From contig NZ_STFZ01000011.1 of the NCBI RefSeq assembly GCF_005222845.1, positions 151,996 through 215,995 on the forward strand: a DNA stretch of 64,000 nt, in the 5' to 3' direction. Below are positions 19,809-35,603 of this stretch, in pieces; positions within the stretch are counted from its first letter, which is position 1, and each line of letters opens with the position of its first letter. The translations under genes and the position numbers were made by a program. This DNA is from Rhizobium sp. FY34. Lineage in GTDB: Bacteria > Pseudomonadota > Alphaproteobacteria > Rhizobiales > Rhizobiaceae. The notes beneath the pieces are model-generated. The model did not search any database. It worked only from the letters and a program-made list of their open reading frames with translations, and was not told the origin of the DNA.

Positions 19809-21041
19809 TCAAAGGTCATGCGCAAGCGGCACGTCGATCTTTCCATCGAGGAACTTCTTTGGTCCATCCGCCCCCGGCTTCATGTCGAATTCGAAGATAT
19901 CGAGCGGCAGCCAGAGCGTGGCACAGGCATTGGGAATATCGACAACACCGGAAATATGGCCCTGTACGGGAGCGGTGCCGAGGATGGCATAGGCCTGCGC
20001 CCGCGTGTAGCCGAACTTCGTCATATATTCGATGGCATTGAGGCAGGCCTGGCGGTAGGCGATATGCACGTCGAGATAATGCTGCTTTCCGCCTTCATCG
20101 ACGGAAATGCCTTCGAAGATCAGGTAGTCGTCATATTTCGGCGTGATCGGCGACGGGCGGAAGATCGGGTTCTTGATCCCGTATTTCGCCATGCCGTCCT
20201 TGATCAGCGTCACCTTGATATGCAGCCAGCCGGCCATTTCGATGGCACCGCAGAAGGTGATCTCGCCATCGCCCTGGCTGAAATGCAGATCGCCCATGGA
20301 GAGACCGGCCCCATCGACATAGACGGGGAAATAGATCTTGGAGCCGCGTGACAGATCCTTGATATCGCAATTGCCGCCATGTTCGCGCGGCGGCACCGTG
20401 CGCGCGCCGCTGGCGGCCGCTGTATCGCGCGCCTCACCCTTCAGGGCGCCCATATGCGCAGTCGGCCCGCCATCGGGCAGTGCGGCGAGAGCCGGCACAC
20501 GGCCGGGATCTGTATCGAACAGCGCCTTTTCGCGGCTGTTCCACATCTCCAGCATCTTGTGATCCGGCAGGCAGCCGATCAGGCCGGGATGAATGAGACC
20601 GGCATATTTGACGCCGGGCACATGGCGCGATGAGGTGAACATGCCGTGGAAATCCCAGATCGATTTCTGCGCTTCGGGGAAATGCTCGGTCAGAAAACCG
20701 CCGCCATTCTTTTTGGAAAAGAAGCCGTTGAAGCCCCAGAGACTGTTGTCGAAGGCGCCGATATCGAGAATGTCGACAACCAGCAGGTCGCCGGGCTGGG
20801 CACCCTTGACGCCGATCGGGCCGGAGAGGAAATGCACCTGGCTGAGATCCACATCGCGCACGTCCGCCGCATCGTCATCGTTCTTGATCTGGCCGCCGGT
20901 CCAGTCATAGGTTTCGATGCGAAAATCATCGCCAGGCTCCACCCAGCAGGCCATCGGAATATCGGGATGCCAGCGATTGTGGATCTTTTCGTTCGTATAG
21001 GGCGATTGGCTGAGATCGACCTTGATCAATGTGTCAGGCAT
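19809..21041 (-). CDS. fmdA: formamidase (acetamidase/formamidase family)
   Basis: Amidohydrolase of 410 residues, the standard length of FmdA, hydrolysing formamide to formate and ammonia. Recognisable stretches are HNRWHPDIP, PGDLLVVDILDIGAF, PGLIGCLPDH, and the PPREHGGNCDIKDLSRGS block with the conserved HGGN-D pattern. An AAGGAG element precedes the ATG. It sits directly behind the urea/amide-type ABC transporter genes, so the imported amide is probably its substrate or a related short-chain amide. Confidence 0.93.
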   Translation of the reverse strand: MPDTLIKVDLSQSPYTNEKIHNRWHPDIPMACWVEPGDDFRIETYDWTGGQIKNDDDAADVRDVDLSQVHFLSGPIGVKGAQPGDLLVVDILDIGAFDNSLWGFNGFFSKKNGGGFLTEHFPEAQKSIWDFHGMFTSSRHVPGVKYAGLIHPGLIGCLPDHKMLEMWNSREKALFDTDPGRVPALAALPDGGPTAHMGALKGEARDTAAASGARTVPPREHGGNCDIKDLSRGSKIYFPVYVDGAGLSMGDLHFSQGDGEITFCGAIEMAGWLHIKVTLIKDGMAKYGIKNPIFRPSPITPKYDDYLIFEGISVDEGGKQHYLDVHIAYRQACLNAIEYMTKFGYTRAQAYAILGTAPVQGHISGVVDIPNACATLWLPLDIFEFDMKPGADGPKKFLDGKIDVPLAHDL

Positions 21042-21089: not shown

Positions 21090-21779
21090 TCAGACGGAGA
21101 GGAAGCTTGCGACGCGGGCTTCATCAATGCCGGCGCGCGGCGCATCGTGGACGATCTCGCCCTTTTCGATCACCAGAACCCGATCGGCCATGTCGAGGGC
21201 AAAGCTCAGCACCTGTTCCGACACGACGATGGACAGGCCCATCTCGTCGCGGATACGGCACAGCGTGCGCGCCATTTCCTTGATGATCGAAGGCTGGATG
21301 CCTTCGGTGGGCTCGTCGAGCAGAAGCACTTTCGGTTTTGACGCAAGCGCTCGGGCAATGGCCAATTGCTGCTGCTGGCCGCCTGACAGGTTACCGCCGC
21401 GCCGACCCTTCATCTCCAGAAGCACCGGAAAAAGCTCATAGATATGGCCGGGGACTGTCTTCTCGCCGGTCACAGTCAGACCCGTCTCGATGTTTTCCTG
21501 CACGGTGAGCGTCGAAAAGATCATCCGGCCCTGCGGTACATAGGCCAGGCCCTTGCCGACCCGCTCGAAGCTTTCCAGCCCGCTGACGGCCTGATCACCG
21601 ATGCGGATCATTCCCTCTGTCGTGGGAATGACGCCGATCAGCGATTTCATGAGCGTCGTCTTGCCCATACCGTTCCGGCCCATGATGGCGACGATCTCGG
21701 CGGGCTTCACGTCAAAGGACAGACCGTGAATGACTTCGCTCTGGCCGTAGCTGACCCTCAGTTTTTCAACAGACAGCAT
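21090..21779 (-). CDS. ABC transporter ATP-binding protein (UrtE/LivF type)
   Basis: ATPase of 229 residues, Walker A GRNGMGKTT, signature LSGGQQQQ, Walker B VLLLDEPTEGIQ; the EGIQ ending is typical of UrtE/LivF. One of two ATPases of the amide transporter; follows the UrtD-type gene by 9 bases and precedes fmdA. Confidence 0.92.
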   Translation of the reverse strand: MLSVEKLRVSYGQSEVIHGLSFDVKPAEIVAIMGRNGMGKTTLMKSLIGVIPTTEGMIRIGDQAVSGLESFERVGKGLAYVPQGRMIFSTLTVQENIETGLTVTGEKTVPGHIYELFPVLLEMKGRRGGNLSGGQQQQLAIARALASKPKVLLLDEPTEGIQPSIIKEMARTLCRIRDEMGLSIVVSEQVLSFALDMADRVLVIEKGEIVHDAPRAGIDEARVASFLSV

Positions 21780-21788
21780 GGCAACCCC

Positions 21789-22562
21789 CTAATGACCGAG
21801 ATAGACTTCCACGACCCTTGGATCGTGCTTGACGCGTTCCATGCTGCCTTCGGACAGAACCTTGCCCTGGTGCAGAACCGTCACCCGATGGGCGATGTCC
21901 TCGACGAATTTCATGTCGTGCTCGATGACGATGACCGACTGGTTGCGGGTAATGGTGTTGAGGAGTTCGGCGGTCTTGATGCGCTCGGCGACACTCATGC
22001 CCGCCACGGGCTCATCGAGCATGAGCAGCCGGGGCTTCTGGATCAGCAGCATGCCAATCTCCAGCCATTGCTTCTGGCCATGGCTGAGGATGGCCGCATC
22101 GGTATGCAGGTGATCCTTCAGGAAGATCATCTCCGCCACCTCTTCGACCCGCTCGATCACCTCCCGGTCGCGGCGGAAGGTGAGTGCACCAAACACCGAG
22201 CGTCCCTTTGGAAAGGACAGTTCCAGGTTCTCGAACACCGTCAGATCCTCGTAGATGGACGGGTTCTGGAACTTGCGCCCCACGCCGGCATGCACGATTT
22301 CATGTTCGCGCATCTTGGTCAGTTCCAGCCCATCGAAGCGGATGGAGCCGGATGTCGCCTTGGTACGACCGCAGATCAGGTCCAGAACCGTCGTCTTACC
22401 CGCACCATTCGGGCCGATGATCACCCGGATCTCGTTCTCATCGACATAGAGCGACAGGTCGTTGACTGCCTTGAACCCGTCGAAGGAGACCGTGAGGGAA
22501 TCGATGCTGAGGATGAAGTCCTTGGACAATTGCTCGTTGACTTGCATGATGCTCTCCATCAT
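21789..22562 (-). CDS. ABC transporter ATP-binding protein (UrtD/LivG type)
   Basis: ATPase of 257 residues (252 if the internal ATG at 22547, which has GGAGAG 4 bases ahead, is the real start). Walker A GPNGAGKTT, signature SHGQKQWLEIG and Walker B LLMLDEPVAGM; the SHGQKQW form of the signature is characteristic of UrtD. Overlaps the stop of the permease gene by four bases. Confidence 0.92.
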   Translation of the reverse strand: MMESIMQVNEQLSKDFILSIDSLTVSFDGFKAVNDLSLYVDENEIRVIIGPNGAGKTTVLDLICGRTKATSGSIRFDGLELTKMREHEIVHAGVGRKFQNPSIYEDLTVFENLELSFPKGRSVFGALTFRRDREVIERVEEVAEMIFLKDHLHTDAAILSHGQKQWLEIGMLLIQKPRLLMLDEPVAGMSVAERIKTAELLNTITRNQSVIVIEHDMKFVEDIAHRVTVLHQGKVLSEGSMERVKHDPRVVEVYLGH

Positions 22563-23686
22563 TCGGCCGCCTGCGGCTGGGGTTCGGGGCTCGGTTTTGA
22601 AAACCGTGCCAGCGCTTTGGCGAAGAAGGGTTCGACATGGTCCTTCACCACACCGGCCAGACCGAAGGGAAAGGCCATGACCACGGCGATGAACAGCCCG
22701 CCCATGGCAAACAGCCAGAGTTCTGGAAAGCTTTCGGAAAACGTCGTCTTGGCGGCATTGACCAGCAGCGCGCCATAGATCGCGCCAAACAGCGACAGGC
22801 GGCCGCCGACAGCCGCGAAGATGACCATCTCGATCGACGGTACAATTCCGACGAAGGAGGGCGACATGAAGCCGACTTGCAGTGTGAACATGGCGCCACC
22901 GATGGCTGAAATGGCCGCCGCCAGGCAGAAGATGAAGATCTTGAAATTGGCCACGTCATAGCCGGAGAAGCGCACGCGATCCTCCCGGTCACGCATGGCG
23001 ATCAGCAGGCGTCCGAATTTCGAAATGCGCACCGATTGGGCAAGCAGCAACACGCCGATCAGGAGCAGCGCATTGACGAAATAGAGGATCAGTTTGGCAC
23101 TATCGGTGCGGATATCCCATCCATGCAGCGTGCGAAGATCGGTAATACCGTTGACGCCGCCGGTATAGCCCTGCTGGCCGATGATGAGAATGGTGAGAAT
23201 GGCGGCCACCGCCTGGGTAATGATGGCGAAATAGACCCCGCCGACCCGCCGCTTGAACATGGCCGCACCGATGACGAAGGCGAAGAACGAGGGCACCAGA
23301 ATGATGGCGACAATCGTGAACGTGAGCGAATAGAAGGGTTGCCACCAGCTCGGCAGCGCCGTGATCTGGTTCCAGTCCATGAAATCGGGAATGCCCGGTG
23401 TCGACTGGATCTTCGTGGCCGCTGGCGTCGAGGCCTCCAGCTTGAGGAACATCGCCATGCAATATCCGCCAAGGCCGAAGAAAATGCCTTGGCCAAGGCT
23501 GAGAATTCCGCCACCGCCCCACAACAGCACAAGGCCGATGGCGACGAAGGCATAGGTCAGATATTTGCCGATCAGGTTGAGCCGGAACACATCGACGGCG
23601 AGCGGCATGACGACAAGCAGGAGGGCGGCCAGAATGGTAAAGTAAAGCCATTCCTTCTTGGAAAACAGGAAGCCGGCAGCAGGCAT
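22559..23686 (-). CDS. ABC transporter permease (UrtC/LivM type)
   Basis: Permease of 375 residues. ATG 23686 has TAAGGAG 8 bases upstream; the open frame continues far into the preceding gene but that part is out-of-frame permease DNA. About ten hydrophobic segments; LLWGGGGILSLGQGIFFGLGG is the typical UrtC/LivM glycine-rich motif. Partner of the UrtB-type permease. Confidence 0.92.
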   Translation of the reverse strand: MPAAGFLFSKKEWLYFTILAALLLVVMPLAVDVFRLNLIGKYLTYAFVAIGLVLLWGGGGILSLGQGIFFGLGGYCMAMFLKLEASTPAATKIQSTPGIPDFMDWNQITALPSWWQPFYSLTFTIVAIILVPSFFAFVIGAAMFKRRVGGVYFAIITQAVAAILTILIIGQQGYTGGVNGITDLRTLHGWDIRTDSAKLILYFVNALLLIGVLLLAQSVRISKFGRLLIAMRDREDRVRFSGYDVANFKIFIFCLAAAISAIGGAMFTLQVGFMSPSFVGIVPSIEMVIFAAVGGRLSLFGAIYGALLVNAAKTTFSESFPELWLFAMGGLFIAVVMAFPFGLAGVVKDHVEPFFAKALARFSKPSPEPQPQAAE

Positions 23687-23697
23687 GGAAGATCTCC

Positions 23698-24624
23698 TTA
23701 GCGGCGGATATTGAGGGAAAACAGGCCTTGCGGGCGCAGCATCAGGATGCCGACGACGGTGAGCAGGGTGAGCACCTTCGCCATCGAGCCGCTGAGGAAG
23801 AATTCCATGGTCGACTGCGCCTGCGAGATGGTGAAGGCCGATGCAATCGTCCCGATCAGGCTTCCGGCACCGCCGAACACGACCACAAGGAATGTATCGA
23901 CGATATAGAGCTGGCCGGCCGTTGGACCGGTCGAGCCGATCATGGTGAAGGCCGATCCGGCGATGCCCGCGATGCCGCAGCCGAGCCCGAAAGTCATCCG
24001 GTCCACCATCTTGGTATTGATGCCGACGGCACCGGCCATAACCCGGTTCTGCACCACGGCGCGCACCCGCTTGCCCCAGGAGGAGCGGTACATGATGAAA
24101 TAGACACCAAGCGCAATGATCATGGTCAGTGCCATGACGAAAAGCCCGTTGAGCGGCACTTCGATCGTCTCGCTGACGGAAACGGAGCCCATCATCCAGT
24201 CCGGCAGGGTGACGCCCACTTCGCGCGCCCCAAATACCGAGCGGTAGAATTGCTGCAGGACGAGCGAAAGTCCCCAGGTAGCCAGCAGCGTATCCAACGG
24301 ACGCCGGTAGAGATGGCGGATCAGCACCCACTCCACCAGTACGCCGAGTGAAAACGAGGCGACAAAGGCAAGCGCCATGGCCAGGAAAAAGTAATAAGGA
24401 AAGAAGGCCGGCAGATAGGTCGTCACCAGTGTCGAGCACAGATAGGTGACATAGGCGCCGAGGATCATGAATTCGCCATGGGCCATGTTGATGACACCCA
24501 TCTGGCCGAAGATGATGGCAAGACCCAGCGCCATCAGCACGAAGACGGAAAACAGGATCAGGCCCGCAAATCCCTGCATCGCCAAAATCGAAAAGAACTC
24601 GCTATAGGTATAATCGCCGATCAT
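23698..24624 (-). CDS. ABC transporter permease (UrtB/LivH type)
   Basis: Permease of 308 residues. The ATG at 24624 is preceded by GAGGTGA; an in-frame ATG 15 bases earlier is less well placed. GLAIIFGQMGVINMAHGEFMILGAY is the hallmark of LivH/UrtB permeases (this motif spans roughly residues 35-60). Second gene of the operon after the binding protein. Confidence 0.92.
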   Translation of the reverse strand: MIGDYTYSEFFSILAMQGFAGLILFSVFVLMALGLAIIFGQMGVINMAHGEFMILGAYVTYLCSTLVTTYLPAFFPYYFFLAMALAFVASFSLGVLVEWVLIRHLYRRPLDTLLATWGLSLVLQQFYRSVFGAREVGVTLPDWMMGSVSVSETIEVPLNGLFVMALTMIIALGVYFIMYRSSWGKRVRAVVQNRVMAGAVGINTKMVDRMTFGLGCGIAGIAGSAFTMIGSTGPTAGQLYIVDTFLVVVFGGAGSLIGTIASAFTISQAQSTMEFFLSGSMAKVLTLLTVVGILMLRPQGLFSLNIRR

Positions 24625-24663
24625 CGTGTCACCTCGCACGCCCTTGGAAAAAGCTCAGGACAA

Positions 24664-24701: not shown

Positions 24702-25964
24702 TTACTGGTAGCCTTCCGGGAAAGGGTTCGGCTCCATCAGGTCCTTCGTCTCGTAGACGAGGTCATACTGGCCATCGGCACGGGCATGGCCGATGCGGGT
24801 CTTCGACCAGAGATGATGGTTTTCGTGGATCTTCACATAGCCTTCCGGCGCCGTGGTCAGCTCGATACCGGGTGATGCGGTGCGAACCTTGTCAATATCG
24901 AAGGAGCCGGCCTTTTCGACCGCTGCCTTCCACAGCCAGGGGCCGAGATAGGCCGCCTGGGTAACATCGCCGATGACGATATTGTCGCCCCACATCTTCT
25001 TGAACGCCGCGACGAAGGCCTTGTTATTGTCATTGGGCAGGCTCTGGAAATACTTCATGGAGGCATAGGCGCCGACCATGTTTTCCCCGCCAATGCCCAG
25101 AATTTCGTCTTCCGTCACCGAAATCGTCAGGAGCAGCGGCTTTTCCTTGGTCATGTCGATGCCGGCTGCCTTCAACTGCTTGTAGAAGGCAACATTCGAG
25201 CCGCCGACGATGATCGCATAGATCACATCGGGCTTCTTCAGCTTGATCTTGTTGATGACCGAATTGAACTGGGTGTGGCCAAGCGGGTAATATTCCTCGC
25301 CGACGACCTCAAGACCCTTCTTTTCGATGTGCTTACGGGCAATCTTATTGGAGGTGCGCGGCCAGATATAATCGGAACCAAGCAGGTAGAAGCTTTTTGC
25401 GCCCTTCTCCTTCACCACCCAGTCAATGCCGGCAAGGATCTGCTGGGTGGCTTCCTGGCCGGTGTAGATAACGTTGGGGCTCTCCTCCAGGCCTTCATAG
25501 AAGGTCGGGTAATAGAGCATGCCGTTATACTGCTCGAAAACCGGCAGGACGGCCTTGCGCGAGGCAGAGGTCCAGCAGCCGAAGACCGAGGCGACCTTGT
25601 CCTCGACCAGCAGTTTCTTGGCCTTTTCGGCAAAGGTCGGCCAGTCGGAACCACCATCCTCCTGAATGACCTCGATCTTGCGGCCCAGAATGCCGCCTGT
25701 GGCATTGATCTGTTCGATGGCAAGCTTTTCGGCCTGGACGGAGCCGGTTTCGGAAATCGCCATCGTGCCGGTCACGGAGTGAAGAATGCCAACCTTGACG
25801 GTGGTGTCCGTCACCGCAAGCCCCGTCGTATTGACGACGGCGGTCGGCAAGCCCTGGGCGCTTGCAACGGAGTTGAAGGCCGCAAGCAGCGGGATCGATG
25901 CCGCGCCTGCAAGCAGGCTTCGGCGACTGATATTCATCGAAGACGATGGTGTTTCGTCAGACAT
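24702..25964 (-). CDS. urea/amide-type ABC transporter substrate-binding protein (UrtA/FmdD-like)
   Basis: Periplasmic binding protein of 420 residues. The N-terminus SRRSLLAGAASIPLLAAF has a twin-arginine-type export signal (S-R-R-x-L) followed by a hydrophobic stretch and an AQG cleavage region. The mature part shows the UrtA/AmiC pattern VKVGILHSVTGTMAISETG and later YYPTFYEGLEESPNVIYTG. A GAGGT element precedes the ATG. With formamidase and FmdB in the operon and no urease genes nearby, the ligand is more likely a short-chain amide than urea (inference). Confidence 0.92.
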   Translation of the reverse strand: MSDETPSSSMNISRRSLLAGAASIPLLAAFNSVASAQGLPTAVVNTTGLAVTDTTVKVGILHSVTGTMAISETGSVQAEKLAIEQINATGGILGRKIEVIQEDGGSDWPTFAEKAKKLLVEDKVASVFGCWTSASRKAVLPVFEQYNGMLYYPTFYEGLEESPNVIYTGQEATQQILAGIDWVVKEKGAKSFYLLGSDYIWPRTSNKIARKHIEKKGLEVVGEEYYPLGHTQFNSVINKIKLKKPDVIYAIIVGGSNVAFYKQLKAAGIDMTKEKPLLLTISVTEDEILGIGGENMVGAYASMKYFQSLPNDNNKAFVAAFKKMWGDNIVIGDVTQAAYLGPWLWKAAVEKAGSFDIDKVRTASPGIELTTAPEGYVKIHENHHLWSKTRIGHARADGQYDLVYETKDLMEPNPFPEGYQ

Positions 25965-26297
25965 GGCGGTACCTCTTCAGTGTTGGAAAGGGGTGGCGTG
26001 GCTGGCAGTGGTGTCCCGGACAACTGACGCTAACCTCGTCGCTAATTGTGCGACGCAACAATGGAGCATTTGACGTATATCCAGTCGGGTCTTTGTCCCG
26101 TAATGTTTGCCCAGAGACCGAAAGATCAGCAAAGAAACCAAGCGGCACCAATAACTTGCAGGATCAGGCCATTTGCCCTGCAGGATCGAAACGTCGCCGA
26201 AATAACATGCTGGAAATGACTGGTACGGAATTTGCTTCGCCCTCGTCGAGGGTCGCCAGCAATGCCGTTTGCGCGACGGGGAAACGAGGGGGATATC
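25965..26297. promoter_or_regulatory. divergent region between amide operon and its two-component system
   Basis: 333 bp with no credible gene. It must hold promoters for both the amide transport operon and the sensor kinase. I checked for a sigma-54 (-24/-12) element: a GGCAC..TTGC arrangement near 26140-26160 has the wrong spacing. No clear palindrome or terminator found. Confidence 0.45.
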
Positions 26298-29200
26298 TTG
26301 AACCAGGCCGAGCGGATTCCCAGAATTCGGCGGACCTATAATCGCTGGGTCGCCAACCAGACTTTGGAGGATTACGCGCTCCGCTTCACGGCCCATGAGG
26401 TGCGCCGTTTTTCGCCGGGGCGCATCGCCAATACGGCCATCGGCGCGATTTCCTTCCTGGCGCTGGAGGCGATCGGCGGCGCCATCACGCTGAACTACGG
26501 CTTCACCAATGCAGCGCTCGCCATCTTCAGTGCCTGCGCGATCATGCTGGTGATCGGGGTGCCGATTGCCTATAACGCAGCCCGTTACGGGGTGGATATA
26601 GATCTCCTGACGCGCGGCGCCGGCTTCGGCTATCTCGGCTCCACCGTCACCTCGCTGATCTATGCGAGCTTCACCTTCCTGTTCTTTGCCATCGAGGCCG
26701 CGATTATCGCCAAGGCGCTGGAGTTGATCACCGGCCTGCCGCTGACATTCGGCTACATCATCAGCGCCTTGGCCATCATCCCGCTTGTCACGCATGGCGT
26801 CACGTTCATCAGCCGTTTCCAGGCCTGGACGCAGCCCTTCTGGATCGTCCTGCAGCTGGCACCCTTCATCTTCATCGCTGCGCAGGGGCTGGAACCGGTG
26901 CAGCGCTGGACGGGCTATACCGGCCTGCTCGGCCCCGTGGACCATAGCTTCGACATCCATCTCTTCGGTCTCTGCTCGGCGGTGGTCTTTTCACTGGCAG
27001 CCCAGATCGGCGAACAGGTCGACTACCTGCGCTTCCTGCCGCGAAAGACGCGCGAAAACCGCGTCAAATGGTGGTTTGCGCTATTGAGCTCCGGTCCTGG
27101 CTGGGTGGTGATCGGCGGTCTCAAGATCCTGGCCGGATCATTTCTCGCCTTCTACGCGTTTCGCCATGGCGTGGCCTTCGAAGACGCCTCCGACCCCACG
27201 CAGATGTATCTCACTGTGTTCAGCCAGATGCTGGCATCGCCGGAGCTTGCGCTTGGGGTGACAGGCGTGTTCGTCGTCATCTGCCAGGTGAAGATCAATG
27301 TCACCAATACCTATGCCGGCTCGATCGCCTGGTCGAATTTCTTCTCACGCCTCACCCACAGCCATCCCGGCCGCGTCGTCTGGCTGGTTTTCAATGTGCT
27401 GATCGGCCTGCTTCTGATGGAATTCGGCATCTACAAGGCGCTGGAGACGGTGCTCGGCCTCTATTCGATCGTGGCCGTCGCCTGGACCGCCTCGATTGCC
27501 GCCGACCTGCTGATCGCCAAACCGCTGGGTCTGTCACCACCGATCATCGAGTTCAAGCGCGCCCATCTTTACGACATCAACCCTGTCGGCTTCGGCTCCA
27601 TGACAGTGGCGGTGATTACCGCCTTTTCGGCCTATGGCGGGCTGATGGGCGAATTGTTGAGCAAGATCTATGTCTATCTCGCCCTCGCCCTGCCCTTCAT
27701 CCTTGTGCCTCTCATCGCCAAGGCCACAGAGGGCCGCTACTACATTGCCCGCACAAGCAGCGTGCACAGCGATGCCAAGGGCCATAGCGGATGCTCGATC
27801 TGCGAGCTGAACTTCGACCGGGAGGACATGGCGCATTGCCCGGTCTATTCCGGCCCCATATGTTCGCTGTGCTGCTCGCTCGATGCGCGTTGCCATGACA
27901 TGTGCAAGACGGATGCGCGCCTCAGCCAGCAGGTCCGCTCGCTTGCCGATGGCTGGCTTCCGCCAAGGCTGGCCGAAGCCCTGCATGGCAGCGTGATGCG
28001 CTATATTGCGCTATTTACGGTCGTCAATGCCTTCATGGGCAGCGTTTTCCTGCTCATCCATTTCCAGAGCACGATCGAGCACCCGGCAACCTCGCAGCTG
28101 ATCGGTTTCGAGCTTTGGAAACTCTACATCATCCTGTTCATCCTCGCCGGTATTGTCACCTGGCTGTTCGTCCTTGCCCAGGAAAGCCGGGATTTCGCCG
28201 AGGAAGAGGCCCGCCGTCATACACGCCTACTGCTCGATGAAATCACCGCGCATGAAGAAACGGATCGGCAGCTGCAAAAGGCAAAGGAAGCCGCCGAATC
28301 CGCCAATCTTGCCAAGAGCAAATATGTGGTGGGTCTCAGCCATGAATTGCGCACGCCGCTCACAGCCATCCTTGGCTATGCCCAGGTGCTGGAGCGTCAG
28401 CAGGGCATGCCGAATTTCGTGCACAATGCCGCCCGCACCATCAAGCGCAGCGGCGAGCATCTGGCGGACATGATCGAGGGCCTGCTGGACATTTCGAAGA
28501 TCGAGGCCGGCAAGTTTGAAATCTTCAGGCACAAGATCGCGCTTGGACCCTTTCTCGACCAGATCGTTGACATGTTCAGCCTGCAGGCCCAGGCGAAAGG
28601 CATCGGTTTCGAATTTCGCGCCACCTCTGCCCTTCCCGACTACGTTTTCACCGACGAGAAGCGCCTGCGCCAGGTGCTCATCAATCTCCTGTCGAATGCC
28701 ATCAAATTTACCCAGCGCGGCCATGTCTGCTTCACACTGTCCTATCGCGGACAGGTGGCCAGATTCGATATCGAGGACACAGGCGTCGGCATCAGAAAAC
28801 AGGATCTTGAGCGGATTTTCCTGCCCTTCGAGCGCGCCGAACAACCGAGCGACCAGATGCAGCCGCCGGGCACCGGGCTCGGGCTGACGATAACAAGGCT
28901 TCTCGTCGAGATCATGGGCGGTGAATTGAAGCTCTCCAGCACCTATGGCAAGGGCACGCATTTTTCCCTTCGCCTGATGCTGTCGGAAGCACAACGCCCG
29001 GAGGACATGGCGGCACCGGCCCTTGCTGTTGCCGGCTATGAGGGGCGGCGGCGCACCATTCTGGTCGCCGATGACGATGCCACGCAGCGCGCCCTGATGG
29101 AGGAAGTGCTGACCCCGCTCGGCTTTGCGGTGGTCACGGTCAATGATGGCTCAGCCTGTCTTTCGACACTTGCCCTCAACCGGCCGGACATCGTCATTCT

Positions 29201-29675
29201 CGATCTCGGCATGCCCCATATGTCAGGCTGGGAAGTGGCAAAGCGCATCCGCCAGCGCCATGGCCGCGACCTGCCCATCCTCATCCTCTCAGCCGATGCC
29301 GGCAATGAACGGACCAAACCCGAATATGCCCAGCTTTTCGATGCCTATCTGATCAAGCCCTTTGGCTTTGAAGACCTCTTCGAGCGTCTGGCAACGCTGA
29401 TCCCAATCACCTGGATTGTCGATGACGGGGTGCATGTGGACGCGCAGCCGCAGCCGGTCTTCCTGCCGAGCCAGATGCCGGATCCGCAAAAGCTGCGCCA
29501 GTTGCGCACATTGGGTGCCACGGGCTTCGTGCGCTCCATCGAGGCGATGCTGAACGATCTGGAGATTTCGGCACCGCATACGGAGCCGTTCTGCAAGCAT
29601 ATGCGTCATCTCGCCACCAATTATCGCCTGCGCGAGTTTCTCGCCATTATCGAAGGTGCCAAAAGCCATGTCTGA
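26298..29675 (+). CDS. hybrid sensor histidine kinase with NCS1-permease-like sensor
   Basis: Very large membrane kinase of about 1125 residues. The start is taken as TTG 26298 with GAGGGGG 6 bases upstream; ATG 26262 is an alternative. Residues about 15-490 form a 12-helix permease-like domain resembling nucleobase:cation symporter-1 proteins (TLEDYALRF, RFSPGRIANTAIGAISFLAL). Then follow a cysteine cluster at residues 499-536 (nine Cys in CSIC...CSLCC...C..C), two further membrane helices, a coiled coil, HisKA with H682 in SHELRTPL, HATPase with N and G boxes, and a receiver domain with phospho-acceptor D969. The C-terminus after the receiver resembles an Hpt-like or linker helix bundle. 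It probably senses an imported or extracellular amide or nucleobase-like compound and signals to the adjacent regulator. Confidence 0.88.
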   Translation: MNQAERIPRIRRTYNRWVANQTLEDYALRFTAHEVRRFSPGRIANTAIGAISFLALEAIGGAITLNYGFTNAALAIFSACAIMLVIGVPIAYNAARYGVDIDLLTRGAGFGYLGSTVTSLIYASFTFLFFAIEAAIIAKALELITGLPLTFGYIISALAIIPLVTHGVTFISRFQAWTQPFWIVLQLAPFIFIAAQGLEPVQRWTGYTGLLGPVDHSFDIHLFGLCSAVVFSLAAQIGEQVDYLRFLPRKTRENRVKWWFALLSSGPGWVVIGGLKILAGSFLAFYAFRHGVAFEDASDPTQMYLTVFSQMLASPELALGVTGVFVVICQVKINVTNTYAGSIAWSNFFSRLTHSHPGRVVWLVFNVLIGLLLMEFGIYKALETVLGLYSIVAVAWTASIAADLLIAKPLGLSPPIIEFKRAHLYDINPVGFGSMTVAVITAFSAYGGLMGELLSKIYVYLALALPFILVPLIAKATEGRYYIARTSSVHSDAKGHSGCSICELNFDREDMAHCPVYSGPICSLCCSLDARCHDMCKTDARLSQQVRSLADGWLPPRLAEALHGSVMRYIALFTVVNAFMGSVFLLIHFQSTIEHPATSQLIGFELWKLYIILFILAGIVTWLFVLAQESRDFAEEEARRHTRLLLDEITAHEETDRQLQKAKEAAESANLAKSKYVVGLSHELRTPLTAILGYAQVLERQQGMPNFVHNAARTIKRSGEHLADMIEGLLDISKIEAGKFEIFRHKIALGPFLDQIVDMFSLQAQAKGIGFEFRATSALPDYVFTDEKRLRQVLINLLSNAIKFTQRGHVCFTLSYRGQVARFDIEDTGVGIRKQDLERIFLPFERAEQPSDQMQPPGTGLGLTITRLLVEIMGGELKLSSTYGKGTHFSLRLMLSEAQRPEDMAAPALAVAGYEGRRRTILVADDDATQRALMEEVLTPLGFAVVTVNDGSACLSTLALNRPDIVILDLGMPHMSGWEVAKRIRQRHGRDLPILILSADAGNERTKPEYAQLFDAYLIKPFGFEDLFERLATLIPITWIVDDGVHVDAQPQPVFLPSQMPDPQKLRQLRTLGATGFVRSIEAMLNDLEISAPHTEPFCKHMRHLATNYRLREFLAIIEGAKSHV

Positions 29676-30588
29676 TCGCTTCGAGGGTAACAGCGTGCTG
29701 ATTGTGGACGATTCCAACGAGGCACTGCTGATGCTGGCCGATGCACTCAGTCTGGAAGGATTGCAGGTGCAGACATCCACCAGCGGACGTCATGCCATTT
29801 CCATGGCCAATTCCAAGGCCCCCGATATCGTGCTGATGGACGCTATGATGCCGGGGCTCGACGGTTTCGACACCTGCAAGATCCTCAAGGCCGCGCGCGG
29901 ATTCGAGGATCTGCCGGTGATCTTCATGACCGGCTATAATGAGAACGAACATGTCGTCAAAGCGCTGGCCGCCGGCGGTGTCGATTTCGTCAGCAAGCCG
30001 ATACGCCTCGACCAGCTGTTTGCCCGCATGCGGGTGCATCTGAGCAATGCACGGCGTGCCCGCTCGGCCCGCTTCGCGCTGGATTCGACCGGCCGCTGGA
30101 TGGTCGCCTGCGATGCCAATGGTCTGATTGCCTGGTCGACGCCGCAGGCCGCCGACCTGTTGATGAAAGTCGGCATCCGCTCCGATACCAACAGCTATCT
30201 GCCGCTGGAGATCCTGTCCTGGCTGAGTGAAACCGCCGTGACCGACCAGGGCGGCAATGCGAATGTGTTTCACTATGCAAGGCTTGGCCATGACATCGAG
30301 TTCCGCCGTCTTTCCGACGGACAGAATGACGAGATCCTGCTGCGGCTGATCGACCGCCATCGCGGCGCCGATGAGGAGCAGCTGGCGCGGGCCTTCGGCC
30401 TGACACTACGCGAGGCCGAAGTGCTTTTATGGGTGGCGCATGGCAAATCCAACAAGGAGATCGCCGATATTCTGGAAATGTCGCCCCGCACGGTGAACAA
30501 GCATATGGAGCAGATCTTCAACAAGCTCGCCGTCGAAAAACGCACCTCGGCGGCCACGCTTGCGGTGCGGGTTCTCTGGCGAGAGTGA
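29668..30588 (+). CDS. response regulator, REC + LuxR-type HTH
   Basis: Response regulator of 306 residues. REC domain residues about 8-125 with acidic pair DD, phospho-acceptor D58 in VLMDAMMPG and K in VSKPI; a middle PAS-like segment; C-terminal LuxR helix-turn-helix (LTLREAEVLLWVAHGKSNKEIADILEMSPRTVNKHM region, residues about 245-300). The ATG overlaps the kinase stop codon region, so kinase and regulator are co-translated. Very likely the DNA-binding output for the divergent amide operon and perhaps the neighbouring hydantoinase operon (inference). An in-frame GTG at 29656 is a less likely start. Confidence 0.9.
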   Translation: MSDRFEGNSVLIVDDSNEALLMLADALSLEGLQVQTSTSGRHAISMANSKAPDIVLMDAMMPGLDGFDTCKILKAARGFEDLPVIFMTGYNENEHVVKALAAGGVDFVSKPIRLDQLFARMRVHLSNARRARSARFALDSTGRWMVACDANGLIAWSTPQAADLLMKVGIRSDTNSYLPLEILSWLSETAVTDQGGNANVFHYARLGHDIEFRRLSDGQNDEILLRLIDRHRGADEEQLARAFGLTLREAEVLLWVAHGKSNKEIADILEMSPRTVNKHMEQIFNKLAVEKRTSAATLAVRVLWRE

Positions 30589-30601: not shown

Positions 30602-32008
30602 TCAACGAACCAGAGAGGATTTCTCCCGCGGGACATAGCCACCCTGCCTGTCACCGCCAGGCAGCAGATCACCGTTTTCAACAATGGTTTTTCCACGCAG
30701 CAGAAGCCGTACCGGCCAGCCCGTCACGGCAAGGCCTTCATAGGGCGTATAGTCGGCGCCATGCTGCAGCATATCGTTGGTGAGGGTCACCTTAAGGCCC
30801 GCATCCCACAGGGCGATATCGGCATCCGAGCCAATGGCAATCGTGCCCTTGCGCGGATAGAGGCCATAGAGCTTGGCATGATTGGTCGAGGTGAGCGCGA
30901 CGAAACGGTTGATATCGATCCGGCCCTTCATCACCCCTTCGGAAAACAGGATCGGCAGACGGGTGGCAACGCCTGGAATGCCGTTTGGTATCCAGCGAAA
31001 ATGCCGCTTGCCCTTGTCATTCAGCTTGCCCTCAACGTCATCGAAGCGGAACGGGCAGTGATCGGATGAAAAGAGATCGAACACGCCCTGTTCCAGCCCC
31101 TCCCAGCAGGCCTCCTGGCTTGCCTTGTCGCGCGGCGGCGGCGAGCAGACAAACTTGGCGCCCTCCATCTCGGTCTGGTCGAGATCCTCTGCCGTCAGCA
31201 TCAGATATTGCGGACAGGTCTCGCCGGCGACCGTCTGGCCTCGCTGGCGCGCCCGACGGATTTCCTCCATGGCTTCACGGTTGGAGACATGCACTATGAC
31301 GATCGGCACATCGACGATTTCCGCCAGAGACAGCGCCCGATGGGTCGCCTCGCGCTCGGCCGCGATGGGCCGGGTCGTGGCGTGAAATTTGGGCGCAAGC
31401 CTGCCCTCTTCCTCATGCCGTCCGATCAGGTAGCGGATCGCATCCTCGTTTTCGCAATGAACCATGACCAGCGCGCCGGTGCGGCGTGCCGTATCGAGCG
31501 TTGCCAGGATCTCGTCATCGCGCAGGCGAAGCCCTTCATAGGTCATGAAGACCTTGAGCGAAGTATAGCCGTCCTCCACCAGCGCCGGCAATTCCTGGCC
31601 CAGCACGTCAGGGGTCGGGTCGGTGATCACCAGATGGAACGACACATCCACATGGCATTTGCCCTCGGCCTTGGCGTGATAGACGTTTAGCGCCTGGCGC
31701 AGCGACTGGCCTTTCTCCTGCATGCAGAAGGCAAGAACCGTGCTATTGCCGCCGACAGCGGCCGAGCGCGTGCCGCTGTCGAAATCATCGGCCATGACGA
31801 TGCCGTCACCGGAGGGCTGGTCGAGATGCACATGGCTGTCGATACCGCCCGGCAGAACGAAAAGCCCGGTTGCATCGATGATCTCGTCGGCGTCTGTCAG
31901 ATCGGCGGCCAGCGCCACGATGCGACCGTCCCTGATGCCGACATCACAGATGAAACTATCGCTTGCCGTGACAACCGTGCCGTTTCTGATGATCGTATCG
32001 AAGCGCAT
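30602..32008 (-). CDS. dihydropyrimidinase / D-hydantoinase family amidohydrolase
   Basis: Cyclic-amide hydrolase of 468 residues. All binuclear metal ligands of the family are visible: H59 and H61 (GGIDSHVHLDQ), carbamylated-lysine candidate K152 (TSLKVFMTYEG), H184 (MVHCENED), H240 (IVHVSNRE) and D316 (FSSDHCPF). Family members open hydantoin or dihydropyrimidine rings to N-carbamoyl products. Last gene of a minus-strand operon with an amino-acid-type ABC transporter and a PLP enzyme; converges with the response regulator only 13 bp away. No N-carbamoyl amidohydrolase gene is in the operon. Confidence 0.92.
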   Translation of the reverse strand: MRFDTIIRNGTVVTASDSFICDVGIRDGRIVALAADLTDADEIIDATGLFVLPGGIDSHVHLDQPSGDGIVMADDFDSGTRSAAVGGNSTVLAFCMQEKGQSLRQALNVYHAKAEGKCHVDVSFHLVITDPTPDVLGQELPALVEDGYTSLKVFMTYEGLRLRDDEILATLDTARRTGALVMVHCENEDAIRYLIGRHEEEGRLAPKFHATTRPIAAEREATHRALSLAEIVDVPIVIVHVSNREAMEEIRRARQRGQTVAGETCPQYLMLTAEDLDQTEMEGAKFVCSPPPRDKASQEACWEGLEQGVFDLFSSDHCPFRFDDVEGKLNDKGKRHFRWIPNGIPGVATRLPILFSEGVMKGRIDINRFVALTSTNHAKLYGLYPRKGTIAIGSDADIALWDAGLKVTLTNDMLQHGADYTPYEGLAVTGWPVRLLLRGKTIVENGDLLPGGDRQGGYVPREKSSLVR

Positions 32009-32026
32009 ATCCTGTTGTCCCCTGTC

Positions 32027-33292
32027 TCAGCTTGCTTTGGAAAGGCCGGTATCCGTCGAGAGGATTGTGTCCAGCGCCTGGGTGAAACGGTCCACTTCCT
32101 CAAGCGTATTGTAGTGAACCATCGAGACCCGCAGCATGCCGCCATGGTCTGTCAGTTCCAGATATTCGGCAAGCCGGCGTGAATGGAAGTCGCCAAACCG
32201 CATGGCGATCTTTTCGCCATCCATTGCCTTGCAGATGTCTCCTGCCTCGCGGCCATCGAAACGAAAGGCGATGGTCGGCACCCGCGAGCCATTGCGGTTC
32301 ACCGATTGGCCGATAATCCGGCAATCGTTGCGAGACCGTAGATAGGCCAGCAAACGCTCGGCCAAGAGGTTCTCCTGGATGGTGATCGCGCCATAGGCGG
32401 CCTCGATCTTCTGGCGCACCGTGCCGGTTTCGCCCGCCCTTTCGCCAAGCGCCACCAGGTAATCGACAATGCCGCAGGTCGAATAGGCCAGCTCGTAGTT
32501 CGGATTGCCCGGCTCCAGCTTGCCCGGCACTTTGTCCTTGCCGTAAAAGTAGTGATAGAGCGTATCGAGCTCCAGCAGCAGATCATATTTGCCATACATC
32601 AGGGCATAGTGCGGCCCATAGGTCTTGTAGAGACTGAAGACGTAATAATCGGCATCGAAAGCCTGCACATCGACGGCGCGATGCGGCGCATAGGCGACGG
32701 CATCGACGCAGATTTTTGCGCCACGCGCATGCACGAAATCGGCAATCTCGCGGATCGGATGGATCGAGCCAAGGATGTTGGAGGAATGCGTGACGCAGAC
32801 AAGCCGGGTGCGATCGCTCATCAGCGGCTCGAGATCGGCAAGGTCCAGCGTCAATGTTTGCGTGTTGAGCGGCCAGACGTTCACGACAATGCCGCGCTCC
32901 TGCAAACGGTCCCAAGGACCGATATTGGATTCATGGTCGGCAATGGTGATGATGATCTCGTCTCCCGGCGACAGCTGGCTGTGCATGGCGCGCGCCAGGT
33001 TCTGCAACAGCTGCGTCGTGGAATTGCCGAAGACGATTTCCTCCGGTCGCGCCGCATTGACCAGATGCATGGCGGCCGTTCGGGCTTCCAGAAGCGCGCG
33101 CGCGGCATCCTGCGAAACCTCGTAGCTGCCGCCGATCTGTACGTTCTTTTCAATGAGGAACGTGTTGATGCGATCAAGCGCACCCTGGAGGATCTGCGAT
33201 CCGCCGGCATTGTCGAAATAGGTCCAGCCGCGAGCAAGGCCCGGAAACTGGCTGCGCACGAAATCGAGATCCAGCGGCAAAGTGGTGGCCAT
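32027..33292 (-). CDS. cysteine-desulfurase-like class V aminotransferase
   Basis: PLP enzyme of about 421 residues (start 33292, GGAGG 9 bases upstream). It has the class V fold with Y-F-DNAGGSQ at the N-terminus, HESNIGPW, D197 in CVDAVAYAPH pairing with the PLP ring nitrogen, and the Schiff-base lysine K223 in FSLYKTYGPH. The region where NifS/SufS enzymes carry the active-site cysteine (R-x-G-x-x-C) reads MRFGDFHSRR, without a cysteine, so genuine desulfurase activity is doubtful. Co-transcribed with the hydantoinase and an amino-acid-type transporter, so it may act on an amino acid released from a cyclic precursor (inference). Confidence 0.88.
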   Translation of the reverse strand: MATTLPLDLDFVRSQFPGLARGWTYFDNAGGSQILQGALDRINTFLIEKNVQIGGSYEVSQDAARALLEARTAAMHLVNAARPEEIVFGNSTTQLLQNLARAMHSQLSPGDEIIITIADHESNIGPWDRLQERGIVVNVWPLNTQTLTLDLADLEPLMSDRTRLVCVTHSSNILGSIHPIREIADFVHARGAKICVDAVAYAPHRAVDVQAFDADYYVFSLYKTYGPHYALMYGKYDLLLELDTLYHYFYGKDKVPGKLEPGNPNYELAYSTCGIVDYLVALGERAGETGTVRQKIEAAYGAITIQENLLAERLLAYLRSRNDCRIIGQSVNRNGSRVPTIAFRFDGREAGDICKAMDGEKIAMRFGDFHSRRLAEYLELTDHGGMLRVSMVHYNTLEEVDRFTQALDTILSTDTGLSKAS

Positions 33293-33321
33293 CCTTGTGG
33301 TCCTCCGAGTGTTTTTTATGA

Positions 33322-34071
33322 TCAATGATTGAGCACGGCGCGCAGGAAGCCGCGCGTTCGCTCTTCTTTCGGATTGTCGAAAATCTCTTCCGGCGTGCCC
33401 TCTTCGACCAGGCGCCCGCCATCCATGAAGATCACCCGGTCGGCGACCTGTCGGGCAAAGCCCATTTCATGGGTAACGACCACCATGGTAACGCCAGTGC
33501 CGGCAAGCTTGCGCATGACGTCCAGCACTTCGCCCACCATTTCAGGGTCGAGCGATGAGGTCGGCTCATCGAACAGTAAGACCTTGGGCTGCATGGCAAG
33601 CGCGCGTGCAATGGCGACACGCTGCTGCTGCCCGCCGGACAGCTGGCCCGGATATTTCTCCGCCTGTTCGGCAATGCCGACGCGTGCGAGCAGTTCGCGC
33701 GCCTTGCGTTCAGCCTCGACCACGGGCGTCTTTCGCACTCGCAGCGGCGCCAGCATGATATTGCGCAGCACCGTCATGTGCGGAAAAAGGTTGAAGGACT
33801 GGAACACCATACCGACCTCGGCCCGCACTTTCGCAAGCGCCGATCCGGGGCCAACCGCAATGCCGTCCACCGTGATCGTGCTGTCGCGGGAAAAGGCCTC
33901 CAGATGGTTGATGCAGCGGATCAGCGTCGATTTTCCAGACCCCGACGGTCCGATGACGCAGACAACCTCGCCCTCGGCAATATCGAGATCGATGCCGTGC
34001 AGCACAGTGAAATCGCCATAGGCCTTGGTCAGGCTACGGATGGAAATGAGGGTGGAACCGAGCCTGTCCAT
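33322..34071 (-). CDS. amino acid ABC transporter ATP-binding protein (GlnQ/HisP type)
   Basis: ATPase of 249 residues, Walker [11 protein letters not shown]-loop [14 protein letters not shown], signature LSGGQQQR, Walker [15 protein letters not shown]: the exact pattern of polar amino-acid transporters. Its ATG overlaps the stop of the permease gene (TGATG). The open frame extends upstream over the permease gene but in the wrong frame. Confidence 0.95.
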
Positions 34072-34742
34072 CAGCGCTTGCCCTTGCTGAAATGCTTTTC
34101 GAGCCGCGCGACGATGGCAACCATGGGCCAGAGCAGGAGCACATAGATGAGTGCAGCACCAATCAGCGGCGTGGGATTGGCGGCAAGTGCCTGCGCCTGG
34201 GTTGCCTGCTTCAAGAGGTCGGGCATGGCGACCACCGAGGCAAGCGCTGTGTCCTTCAGCACATTGATGCAATTGTTGGTGAGCGGCGGAATGACGATGC
34301 GCACCGCCTGCGGCAGGATGACATCCACCATCGTATGCCGGTTGGATAGGCCAAGTGCAGCGGAGGCCTCGAATTGCCCCTGCGGAATGGCCTCGATGCC
34401 GGCCCGGAAAATCTCGGCCGTATAGGCCGCAGAGACGAGCGAAAGCGCCGTGACCGCCGAAACGAAGGGTGAGAGGCGAATGCCGACAAAGGGCAGCGCG
34501 TAATAGACGAGGATCAGCAGGACCAGGAGCGGAATGGAGCGGAAAATATCGATATAGAAGCGGATCAGCAGTCTGACGATAGACGGCGCATAGAGCCGCG
34601 CGATGGCCAGAAACAGACCACCGGCCAGACCGGCAATAATGCTGGCAATGCCGATCTGAAGCGTGACGACCAGCCCGCGCAGCAGCTGCGGCAGGCTGTC
34701 GATCAGCACCTGCATGTTGAAGAATGTATTGATCAGATTCAT
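34071..34742 (-). CDS. amino acid ABC transporter permease (HisM/GlnP type)
   Basis: Permease of 223 residues with about five membrane helices, the N-terminal [15 protein letters not shown] motif and the EAA loop [24 protein letters not shown], typical of the polar-amino-acid PAAT family. Only one permease gene is present, so the channel is probably a homodimer. Sits between binding protein and ATPase genes. Confidence 0.94.
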
Positions 34743-34805
34743 GCCGCAATGGCTCCTTTCGCAATCCGGCGGGATTTCTCACCCCACCGGTTGCTGTGTA
34801 AGCCT

Positions 34806-35603
34806 TCACTTTGCCTTGGGCATATCGAGGACGGCAACCGTGGACGTCGTGTCCTCGGCCTTGGCGCCGAACCAGGTCTCATGCAGCTTGGCGATGAAAC
34901 CTTCCTTTTTCAGCGTGGTGATGACGCCATTGACCTCGGTGGCCAGCGGATCGCCCTTGTTGAACATGATCGAGTATTTCTCGCCCGTCGGGATGCGCTC
35001 GACGACCTTCAGCTCCGGCTTGCCCTTCACATAATAGAGGAGTGCTGGAATATCGGAAATGTAGCCATCGATGCGGCCGGCGACCAGATCGAGCATGGCC
35101 GGCTGCAGGCCCTCGAACTTGCGGATTTCGCCGAGCTTGTATTCGCCCTTATGGGCGTCCGCCCACATGTCGCCGGTGGAACCCGTATCGACGCCGACCG
35201 GTTTGCTGCCCATGTCCTTCAGGCCGGCAATACCGGATTTCGCCGTGACGGTGAGCGACTGGTCGCTATCATAATAGGGCTGCGCGAAGGAGACGGATTC
35301 CAGGCGTTTCTGGGTGATGGTGATGGACGAGACCGCCATGTTGATGCGGCCGGACTGGACGGCCGGAAACAGGCCGGCAAACGGCGTATTGACGAACTCG
35401 ACCGTCTTGCCGAGGCGCTTGGCGATTTCGGTGACGAGATCGACCTCGAAACCCACCGTCTTGCCGCTGGCGTCCTGGAACTCCCAGGGCACATTGCCGA
35501 TATTGGCCCCCACCGTAAGGTCGGCAGCATGCGAGCCTGTGGCGCCAATGGCGGCAAGGAAGGCGGTTAACACTGCTGTTTTGAAACTGGATGCGCGCGT
35601 CAT
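34806..35603 (-). CDS. amino acid ABC transporter substrate-binding protein (SBP_bac_3)
   Basis: Periplasmic binding protein of 265 residues with signal peptide ending GSHAAD. The mature protein begins [14 protein letters not shown], then [16 protein letters not shown] and [14 protein letters not shown], the standard family-3 pattern. First gene of the operon; divergent from a FadR-type regulator. The ligand may be a hydantoin, carbamoyl-amino acid or amino acid, judged from the enzymes downstream (inference). Confidence 0.93.

Follow-up and report, generated by a model that had tools for sequence, protein, structure and literature searches.

Histidine kinases that carry an entire transporter fold as their sensor are already known. 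CbrA, CrbS and RpuS are such fusions, with a transporter-fold sensor joined to a histidine kinase, and they are linked to the use of nutrients; the SLC5 domain of CbrA transports histidine, and the activating signal is described as still unsettled in those passages of the source that treat it (PMC13022988). In Methylophilus methylotrophus, the fmdCABDEF cluster joins a formamidase to the uptake of short amides and urea, and is induced by formamide and urea; the source passages on this induction give no sensor (PMC10781810). We report here on a hybrid histidine kinase and its overlapping LuxR-type regulator, encoded at positions 26298 to 30588 of a 64,000-nucleotide stretch of Rhizobium sp. FY34 (contig NZ_STFZ01000011.1; the whole stretch is hereafter the window), in which the sensor is modelled with the fold of the NCS1 nucleobase:cation symporters. 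We consider it probable that the pair forms a dedicated two-component system, in which a transporter-derived receptor for amides of the formamide and urea type controls formamidase (fmd) or urea uptake and urease (urt/ure) operons through its LuxR-type partner. The two genes, both on the plus strand, are laid out as follows.

26298 to 29675, plus strand: hybrid histidine kinase, 1125 residues, start TTG (open reading frame, Pfam)
26298 to 27755, plus strand: NCS1-fold permease-like sensor domain, residues 1-486 (structure model, fold comparison, alignment)
within 26298 to 27755, plus strand: sensor pocket positions T126, F129, E133, L233, Q236, K332 and N334, with E57 in transmembrane helix 1 (alignment)
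27783 to 27905, plus strand: cysteine finger, residues 496-536, eight invariant cysteines, predicted to be treble-clef-like (sequence, model)
27990 to 28247, plus strand: two long helices, residues 565-650, read as a membrane pair running into the signalling helix (model; membrane placement inferred from sequence)
28317 to 28511, plus strand: HisKA, residues 674-738, phospho-acceptor His682 at 28341-28343 (Pfam)
28650 to 28982, plus strand: HATPase_c, residues 785-895 (Pfam)
29058 to 29390, plus strand: receiver domain (Response_reg), residues 921-1031, Asp969 (Pfam)
29668 to 30588, plus strand: response regulator with a receiver and a LuxR-type (GerE) helix-turn-helix, alternative start GTG 29656 (Pfam)

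The kinase gene ends at the TGA of 29673-29675, and the regulator gene, counted from its ATG, overlaps it by 8 bases. His682 and Asp969 are both in place, and the partner carries Response_reg and GerE domains, so that the pair is indeed a hybrid kinase followed by an overlapping LuxR-type regulator, as had been read from the letters alone. The genome contig search yielded 464 relatives, and with a cysteine pattern that recurs in 136 of 136 rows (below) the architecture is not a product of chance.

Sequence comparison did not reveal the nature of the sensor. Its first 650 residues gave no significant Pfam match and no match to a transporter family, and 54 relatives scanned individually against the family models gave no consistent family; neither PF02133 nor TIGR00800 was matched above its cut-off, nor was any other NCBIfam model. 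A sequence search of the PDB, including one with a 54-row profile at E 10, found no match, and PF02133 has no match anywhere in the strain's own genome. Since the sequence routes (Pfam, NCBIfam, PDB) all failed, structure was needed to assign the fold. The sequence-only reading had seen a permease-like domain resembling nucleobase:cation symporters, and had proposed structure prediction as a check that the lack of an NCS1/LeuT fold would have decided against it; the prediction returned that fold. An AlphaFold model built on the 54-relative alignment reached a predicted local distance difference test score (pLDDT) of 79.1 and a predicted template modelling score (pTM) of 0.81, and a Foldseek search with it placed Mhp1 and CodB in the first five positions (E 4e-9 to 2e-7). 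By VIA-align, the model superposes on CodB with Z 32.9 (396 residues aligned of 400, root-mean-square deviation 3.5) and on Mhp1 chains with Z 28.6, 27.4 and 25.9, while the best chain outside NCS1 reaches 23.6; solute/sodium symporter (SSS) entries lie below the NCS1 range of 25.9-32.9, with CHT1 and DUR3 at 21.9 and SiaT at 21.4. The sensor thus has a LeuT-type fold closest to CodB and Mhp1, at 14-16% identity in the structural alignments.

A bridge in sequence to NCS1 is provided by a permease at another locus, L132, which matches PF02133 at 3.6e-9, above the cut-off, which is itself matched by the sensor profile at 1.7e-41, and which in turn matches the window's kinase at 7e-31 with 31% identity. 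Against the PDB by sequence, this permease found no transporter and one chance match. One of the standalone permeases discussed below, L223, matches TIGR00800 at 1.5e-6, below the cut-off. On the model, the sensor is an NCS1-related branch lying outside the family models; we call it a branch and not a member because no PF02133 or TIGR00800 match exceeds its cut-off.

What the sensor might perceive is suggested by its neighbours. In 138 loci, the kinase stands beside formamidase and amide-uptake genes in 103, and beside urea uptake or urease genes in 34; the one left, which ends at a contig edge 0.4 kb upstream of the kinase, has no class. Within stretches that measured roughly 5 to 25 kb, a locus was classed as fmd when FmdA exceeded 50% identity or FmdD reached at least 55%, and as urea when UreC exceeded 55% or UrtA reached at least 55%. 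The best 80 of the 464 relatives are the top-scoring part and therefore lean to near relatives; a fairer picture comes from a phylum sample of genomes not picked by similarity, in which 38 of 57 kinases adjoin fmd genes, 18 urea genes, and one a contig edge. That sample comprises 57 of 58 profile-matched kinases with most of the sensor (G370, cut by a contig edge, was left out) and excludes fragments and non-kinase matches (G382, G340, G218, G339:C40, G433). The fmd or urea label changes about 4 times on the kinase tree, against 30.5 in shuffles. Linkage to the divergent formamidase/ABC operon, which had been proposed for the window, is hence borne out in the form of formamidase/amide-uptake or urea genes in 137 of 138 loci.

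The same reading had also drawn candidate signals from a hydantoinase operon on the other side of the kinase, and this does not generalise: among 138 loci, the window is the only one in which a hydantoinase was found next to the kinase. Amides and urea remain as candidate signals, while hydantoin, allantoin and nucleobase breakdown products lose their support from gene order, the hydantoin or nucleobase reading falling because a hydantoinase was found at that single locus, as against fmd or urea genes at 137. The NCS1 fold and the convergent hydantoinase gene at 30602-32008 might suggest hydantoin, allantoin, uracil or some other product of nucleobase breakdown as the signal, a reading that we consider very improbable. 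This gene belongs to a convergent run at 30602-35603, with a class-V aminotransferase-like gene (VC1184 type) and amino-acid-type ABC genes (named from sequence only), which may be an independent set for hydantoin or ureides.

The pocket of the sensor can be compared with that of CodB, where two aromatic residues, Trp108 and Phe204, stack the substrate and the Na2 sodium site includes Thr278 and Thr279 (PMC9379551, in the passages describing these sites). We took the CodB residues from that source and placed them on the sensor by a gapless alignment; a second alignment agrees except for a three-residue gap in transmembrane helix (TM) 8 just before N334. By this alignment, T126 corresponds to Gln105, F129 to Trp108, L233 to Phe204, N334 to Asn280 and K332 to Thr278. 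The TM8 asparagine of CodB is therefore kept. The places of Thr278 and Thr279 are taken by K332 and I333, so that the Na2 site is not present, and only one of the two stacking aromatics of NCS1 is there. E133 lies four residues past the Trp108 position, at what we take to be the place of Mhp1 Gln121.

For counts across the family, 136 kinases were used, L051 (cut by a contig end) and L177 (without a neighbour class, at a contig end) being removed from the 138. E57, T126, E133, Q236, E239, Q240, N334, N337 and Y339 are invariant in all 136; position 332 is Lys in 135 and X in one, position 129 is Phe in 114 and Leu in 22, and position 233, the place of Phe204, is Leu in 133 and Val in 3. With a Leu or Val there in every kinase, less is left to hold a ring, a further point against a nucleobase-type signal; the lost second ring and the Lys at the sodium site would fit a small, non-aromatic ligand and independence of sodium, and from K332 at the place of the sodium ligand Thr278 it follows that any movement of the ligand should be sodium-independent. 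F129 and T336 vary with the neighbour class, being Phe and Thr in 102 of 102 kinases beside fmd genes, and Leu in 22 and Met in 21 of the 34 beside urea genes. They were dropped as specificity positions, because with only 3 to 4 independent pairs such a comparison cannot reach significance.

It could be argued that the NCS1 part is a membrane scaffold, and that what the kinase perceives is nitrogen status or some internal cue, for instance ammonium, redox state or zinc through its cysteine finger. The rigid spacing of the cysteines (136 of 136) would agree with this, as would the nitrogen control of urea and formamide genes in other bacteria, as given in passages of PMC10781810 and PMC5424462. 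However, none of E57, T126, E133, Q236, E239, Q240 and N334 varies in any of the 136 kinases, and the pocket motifs are shared with standalone permeases; such conservation would hardly be needed in a mere scaffold. Part of these permeases also carry the finger, which argues against its cysteines as a general sensor. We regard this explanation as quite unlikely.

The standalone relatives, which we term sister permeases, are proteins of 535-575 residues that are 41-44% identical to the window's sensor (8 aligned) and have TM3, TM6 and TM8 motifs nearly the same as those of the kinases. They were found through plasmid records, are annotated as 'allantoin permease', 'cytosine permease', hypothetical protein or nothing, and occur in a K. 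pneumoniae urease locus, Acinetobacter, Moraxella and actinobacteria. Urease, fmdA or amidase genes lie near 11 of 18 sister loci, which are not independent cases because several from Acinetobacter and Klebsiella are near-copies: seven adjoin urease (L224, L228, L232, L234-L237), three fmdA (L225, L226, L233), and L229, as well as L233, an amidase. This company is a third argument against a nucleobase-type signal. A tree of 46 rows, which has long outgroup branches flagged by a program warning, places the kinases on one side of a branch (92/99, not starred; 94% of bootstrap trees) and the permeases beside them, with the Methylovirgula permease unplaced.

Several of these loci deserve mention in their own right. 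In K. pneumoniae (L232:6956-8563 and L237:5956-7563), the gene immediately after ureG in the urease operon encodes a sister permease labelled 'cytosine permease'; it seems likelier to be a urea or amide permease than a cytosine permease. The Methylovirgula permease follows one of the family's kinase-regulator pairs, between fmdA and an amidase gene. The Arthrobacter permease L220 adjoins BATS and aminotransferase genes (biotin-type). Among the wider relatives, L132:5949-10984 is an amide set that lacks the kinase: beside the PF02133 permease it encodes a CN_hydrolase, an AmiC-like protein and an ANTAR protein of the AmiR type.

The sister permeases also bear on the possibility that the kinase is first a working permease, which takes up formamide or urea and signals the flux, as has been discussed for CbrA and histidine. 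The shared TM3, TM6 and TM8 motifs are in its favour, as is the histidine transport by CbrA (PMC13022988, in the passages noted above). Against it, the acidic residue of TM1 stands at position 56 (AD) in 18 of 18 sister permeases, the putative transporters, and at position 57 (LE or ME) in 138 of 138 kinases, five of these read by eye from the printed stretch; uptake at loci linked to fmd and urt genes is already provided for by an ABC system, and in Methylovirgula a distinct permease stands next to the kinase. We think a flux-signalling permease unlikely, if less so than a scaffold.

Between sensor and kinase lies the finger. The earlier count of nine cysteines in residues 499-536 was one too many: there are eight (499, 502, 514, 522, 525, 526, 532, 536), and their spacing, C-x2-C-x11-C-x7-C-x2-CC-x5-C-x3-C, is identical in all 136 kinases. 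A search of 289 genomes of the class, whose initial screen scores a capped number of candidates from each genome, found 21 occurrences of the segment in 20 genomes, all inside open frames of at least 1130 residues, the size of these kinases. The models place 499 and 502 at a turn between strands and 522 and 525 at the start of a helix, a treble-clef plan; RING, PHD, FYVE, ZZ and LIM lead the fold matches, which are weak (no Foldseek E below 0.33, all Z values under 4), and the segment modelled alone has pLDDT 66.7 and pTM 0.46. The eight potential ligands can be separated into two sets of four. A metal-binding role is likely on these models, with two four-cysteine zinc sites as the best reading; zinc seems likelier than an Fe-S cluster, since the model is treble-clef-like and the leading, if weak, fold matches are zinc fingers. 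Among the 18 sister permeases, 13 keep 499, 502, 522 and 525 without the full second set (514, 526, 532, 536), 4 keep only the first cysteine, and one, that of Methylovirgula, has all eight, for which reason the notion that the second set is private to kinases was dropped. Beyond the finger, the model shows helices at 565-594 and 599-650.

Upstream of the kinase, the window carries the divergent operon together with a candidate site for the regulator.

26055 to 26084: candidate operator with one good half-site, core 26060-26078 AATGGAGCATTTGACGTAT, some 105 bp upstream of the fmd operon's first gene
24702 to 25964, minus strand: amide/urea ABC substrate-binding protein (TIGR03407 over cut-off)
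23698 to 24639, minus strand: ABC permease, UrtB type (TIGR03409 over cut-off)
22559 to 23690, minus strand: ABC permease, UrtC type, approximate start (named from its place in the operon and similarity among relatives)
21789 to 22562, minus strand: ABC ATPase, UrtD type (TIGR03411 over cut-off)
21090 to 21779, minus strand: ABC ATPase, UrtE type (TIGR03410 over cut-off)
19809 to 21041, minus strand: formamidase FmdA (NF045496 equivalog, 766 bits, cut-off 500)

This is an fmd-type operon, a formamidase with a five-gene urea-type ABC system in which UrtC is assigned by position and relatives only. Urea-type ABC clusters beside a formamidase probably carry another amide, according to passages of PMC3098086, and urtABCDE in this position may import formamide, according to passages of PMC13209695. 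An Rfam scan over 14000-40000 returned nothing at gathering scores.

The candidate operator derives from the intergenic stretches. A clean divergent gap was available at 89 of 138 loci, and an inverted repeat CGTCA-n2-TGACG occurs in 18 of them, with outward extensions in 15 to 17, while no such repeat exceeds 2 loci in five shuffles. Extended, the palindrome TACGTCA-nn-TGACGTA precedes many fmd and urea operons. A scan with the consensus TACGTCAnnTGACGTA covered the 136 loci with a full upstream kilobase, which left out L177 and an fmd locus whose upstream region was short. It is matched at 12 bases out of 14 or better in 38 of the 102 fmd loci and in 13 of the 34 urea loci, and in none of 680 dinucleotide shuffles or 136 stretches inside the kinase gene. 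Among 30 printed sites, 27 are placed 66-159 bp ahead of the first uptake gene, as an activator site would be. In the window, the site has one good half, TTTGACGTAT, and a rhizobial form of it, drawn from near relatives, has one match in the window against 0.04 expected. A sigma-54 pattern occurs in 11 of 89 intergenic stretches, including the window's, and we make no sigma-54 claim because it was counted without a shuffle control.

A second kinase in the same genome (C11:478778-482161, with its regulator at 477859-478785) faces urtABCD, with a urease alpha gene about 11 kb on. The genome's best match to the consensus, with a single mismatch, lies here (C11:483659-483674), about 140 bp before similarity to urtA begins, at a locus not used in motif discovery. 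The other 45 matches per strand have three mismatches, and carry no meaning because the reversed control gives more (150).

We propose the following sequence of events. Formamide, urea or a similar carboxamide would bind in the NCS1 pocket, where E133, N334, T126 and Q236 fall by alignment with CodB. Rocking of the bundle against the hash domain would then reach the dimerisation helices of the kinase by way of the finger, which probably holds two zinc ions, and of the additional pair of helices. His682 would be phosphorylated and its phosphate handed to the LuxR-type regulator, a step in which Asp969, in the receiver of the hybrid kinase, would act as relay or as sink; the regulator would activate the divergent fmd operon, and the second copy may act likewise on its own urt and urease genes.

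A number of points weigh against this proposal. Gene linkage indicates a probable target of regulation rather than the bound ligand, and nitrogen status could be the signal. An NCS1 sodium ligand and one stacking ring are absent from the sensor; the invariant polar pocket residues are identical beside fmd and beside urea genes, and for the differences at F129 and T336 the tree offers no more than 4 independent contrasts. A palindrome score of 12 of 14 or higher is confined to 51 of 136 loci, the upstream kilobase of S. meliloti 1021 yields just 8, and at three mismatches the strain's genome shows no enrichment (46 against 150 in the reversed control, per strand). The window site itself scores 10 of 14, a value reached by about 13% of shuffles and by that count not above background; the matrix that gives it a score of 29.2 was built with this site among its members. 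Several of the eleven amide- or urea-linked sister loci, as said, are near-copies, and the other seven (L220, L223, L227, L230, L231, L238, L239) showed, within the fetched stretch, none of the amide or urea genes that were looked for. Finally, in the Klebsiella plasmid record NZ_CP084810.1 the kinase is shortened, and the fetched stretch contains no urt genes.

That record belongs to a larger set, for a sensor match was found in 532 plasmid records, 342 of them from Klebsiella. Four PLSDB records (NZ_CP104448.1, NZ_CP077849.1, NZ_CP064203.1, CP125156.1) are entered as plasmids but, at 3.6-5.4 Mb, look like chromosomes. We opened the neighbourhood of two plasmid-borne kinases, both from Klebsiella. 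In NZ_CP084810.1 (L221:10001-13517), the kinase frame is short (849 codons with the stop) and lies next to an IS5 transposase. In CP024483.1 (L219:3909-14264), a K. pneumoniae conjugative plasmid, amiF-urtEDCBA faces the kinase-regulator pair, AmiF being a formamidase of the CN_hydrolase type, and the gap holds an operator match of 13 of 14. On pSymB of S. meliloti 1021, the kinase copy adjoins urt genes.

The amide theme recurs with changed parts, as FmdA with an ABC system, as FmdA with an AmiS/UreI channel and another kinase part, as AmiF with urt genes, and with urease. The channel form is seen at L135, L136 and L140, where variant kinases of about 885 residues have the same sensor, a different kinase part and no receiver, and stand beside FmdA and the channel (Pfam names read for L140); a receiver-kinase protein follows and an OmpR-type regulator is near (domains read in L136 and L140). 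A related kinase at L137:6857-8713 (G433) has no NCS1 domain and retains a cysteine-rich remnant only; its 12 kb hold no FmdA or Urt match, urease not being among the genes sought.

In the literature we searched, mostly without subscription papers, no description of this family was found. Kinases of such size or kind beside urt genes are tabulated without analysis in the passages concerned of PMC2907700 and PMC13296017, and we judge from size and neighbours that they belong here. A urea-uptake cluster with AmiF has been linked to the urinary Klebsiella lineage CG307, as stated in passages of PMC13060141; a text find in the main text of that preprint returned neither 'histidine kinase' nor 'two-component'. 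As the literature passages on induction by formamide and urea name no receptor, the kinase family offers a candidate one, complete with a partner and a candidate operator.

More tentatively, as something possible rather than probable, we put forward the wider proposal that these kinases are an undescribed, widespread family of transceptors, in which an NCS1-fold urea/short-amide permease was fused once to a kinase, keeping its pocket and shifting its TM1 acid by one residue, with a binuclear zinc finger as the coupling element. Such a family would supply the missing receptor for formamide and urea induction, and conjugative Klebsiella plasmids would carry it together with amiF-urtEDCBA. The sisters that lack a kinase, among them the 'cytosine permease' of the K. 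pneumoniae urease operon, would make up a new family of urea/amide permeases. If this is true, permeases now annotated as cytosine or allantoin permeases acquire a probable urea or amide function. Permeases with one, four or eight finger cysteines and kinases with eight form a natural series for the question of how a transporter becomes a receptor.

Set against described proteins, the sensor shares with CodB and Mhp1 their fold and the TM8 asparagine, and differs from them in matching no family model, in having Lys for Thr278 and Leu or Val for Phe204, and in the finger and kinase added at its C-terminus. With the sister permeases it shares the TM3, TM6 and TM8 motifs and the C-terminal finger, mostly reduced in them; they lack a kinase part and have their TM1 acid at 56 instead of 57. 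AmiC/AmiR likewise places an amide operon under the control of its own substrate, with a soluble binding protein and an antiterminator, unlike the membrane kinase of the window. For the fmdCABDEF cluster of M. methylotrophus, the source text names a putative positive regulator and no kinase (PMC10781810, in the part on that cluster). The nearest likeness remains that to CbrA, CrbS and RpuS, which combine an SLC5 (solute/sodium symporter) domain with a STAC linker. In the window's kinase, Pfam finds no SLC5-type domain and NCS1 ranks above SSS in the fold comparison; no STAC name is among the Pfam hits between the transporter and kinase parts (the library's coverage of STAC being unverified), and the finger and helix pair stand there, with other candidate ligands. 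The likeness to CbrA with a different transporter family, which the sequence-only reading had pointed out, therefore holds. Transporter-kinases were known from CbrA; the NCS1-fold version with a finger is new here and, if our proposal is true, adds a second transporter fold to the kinase-transceptors.

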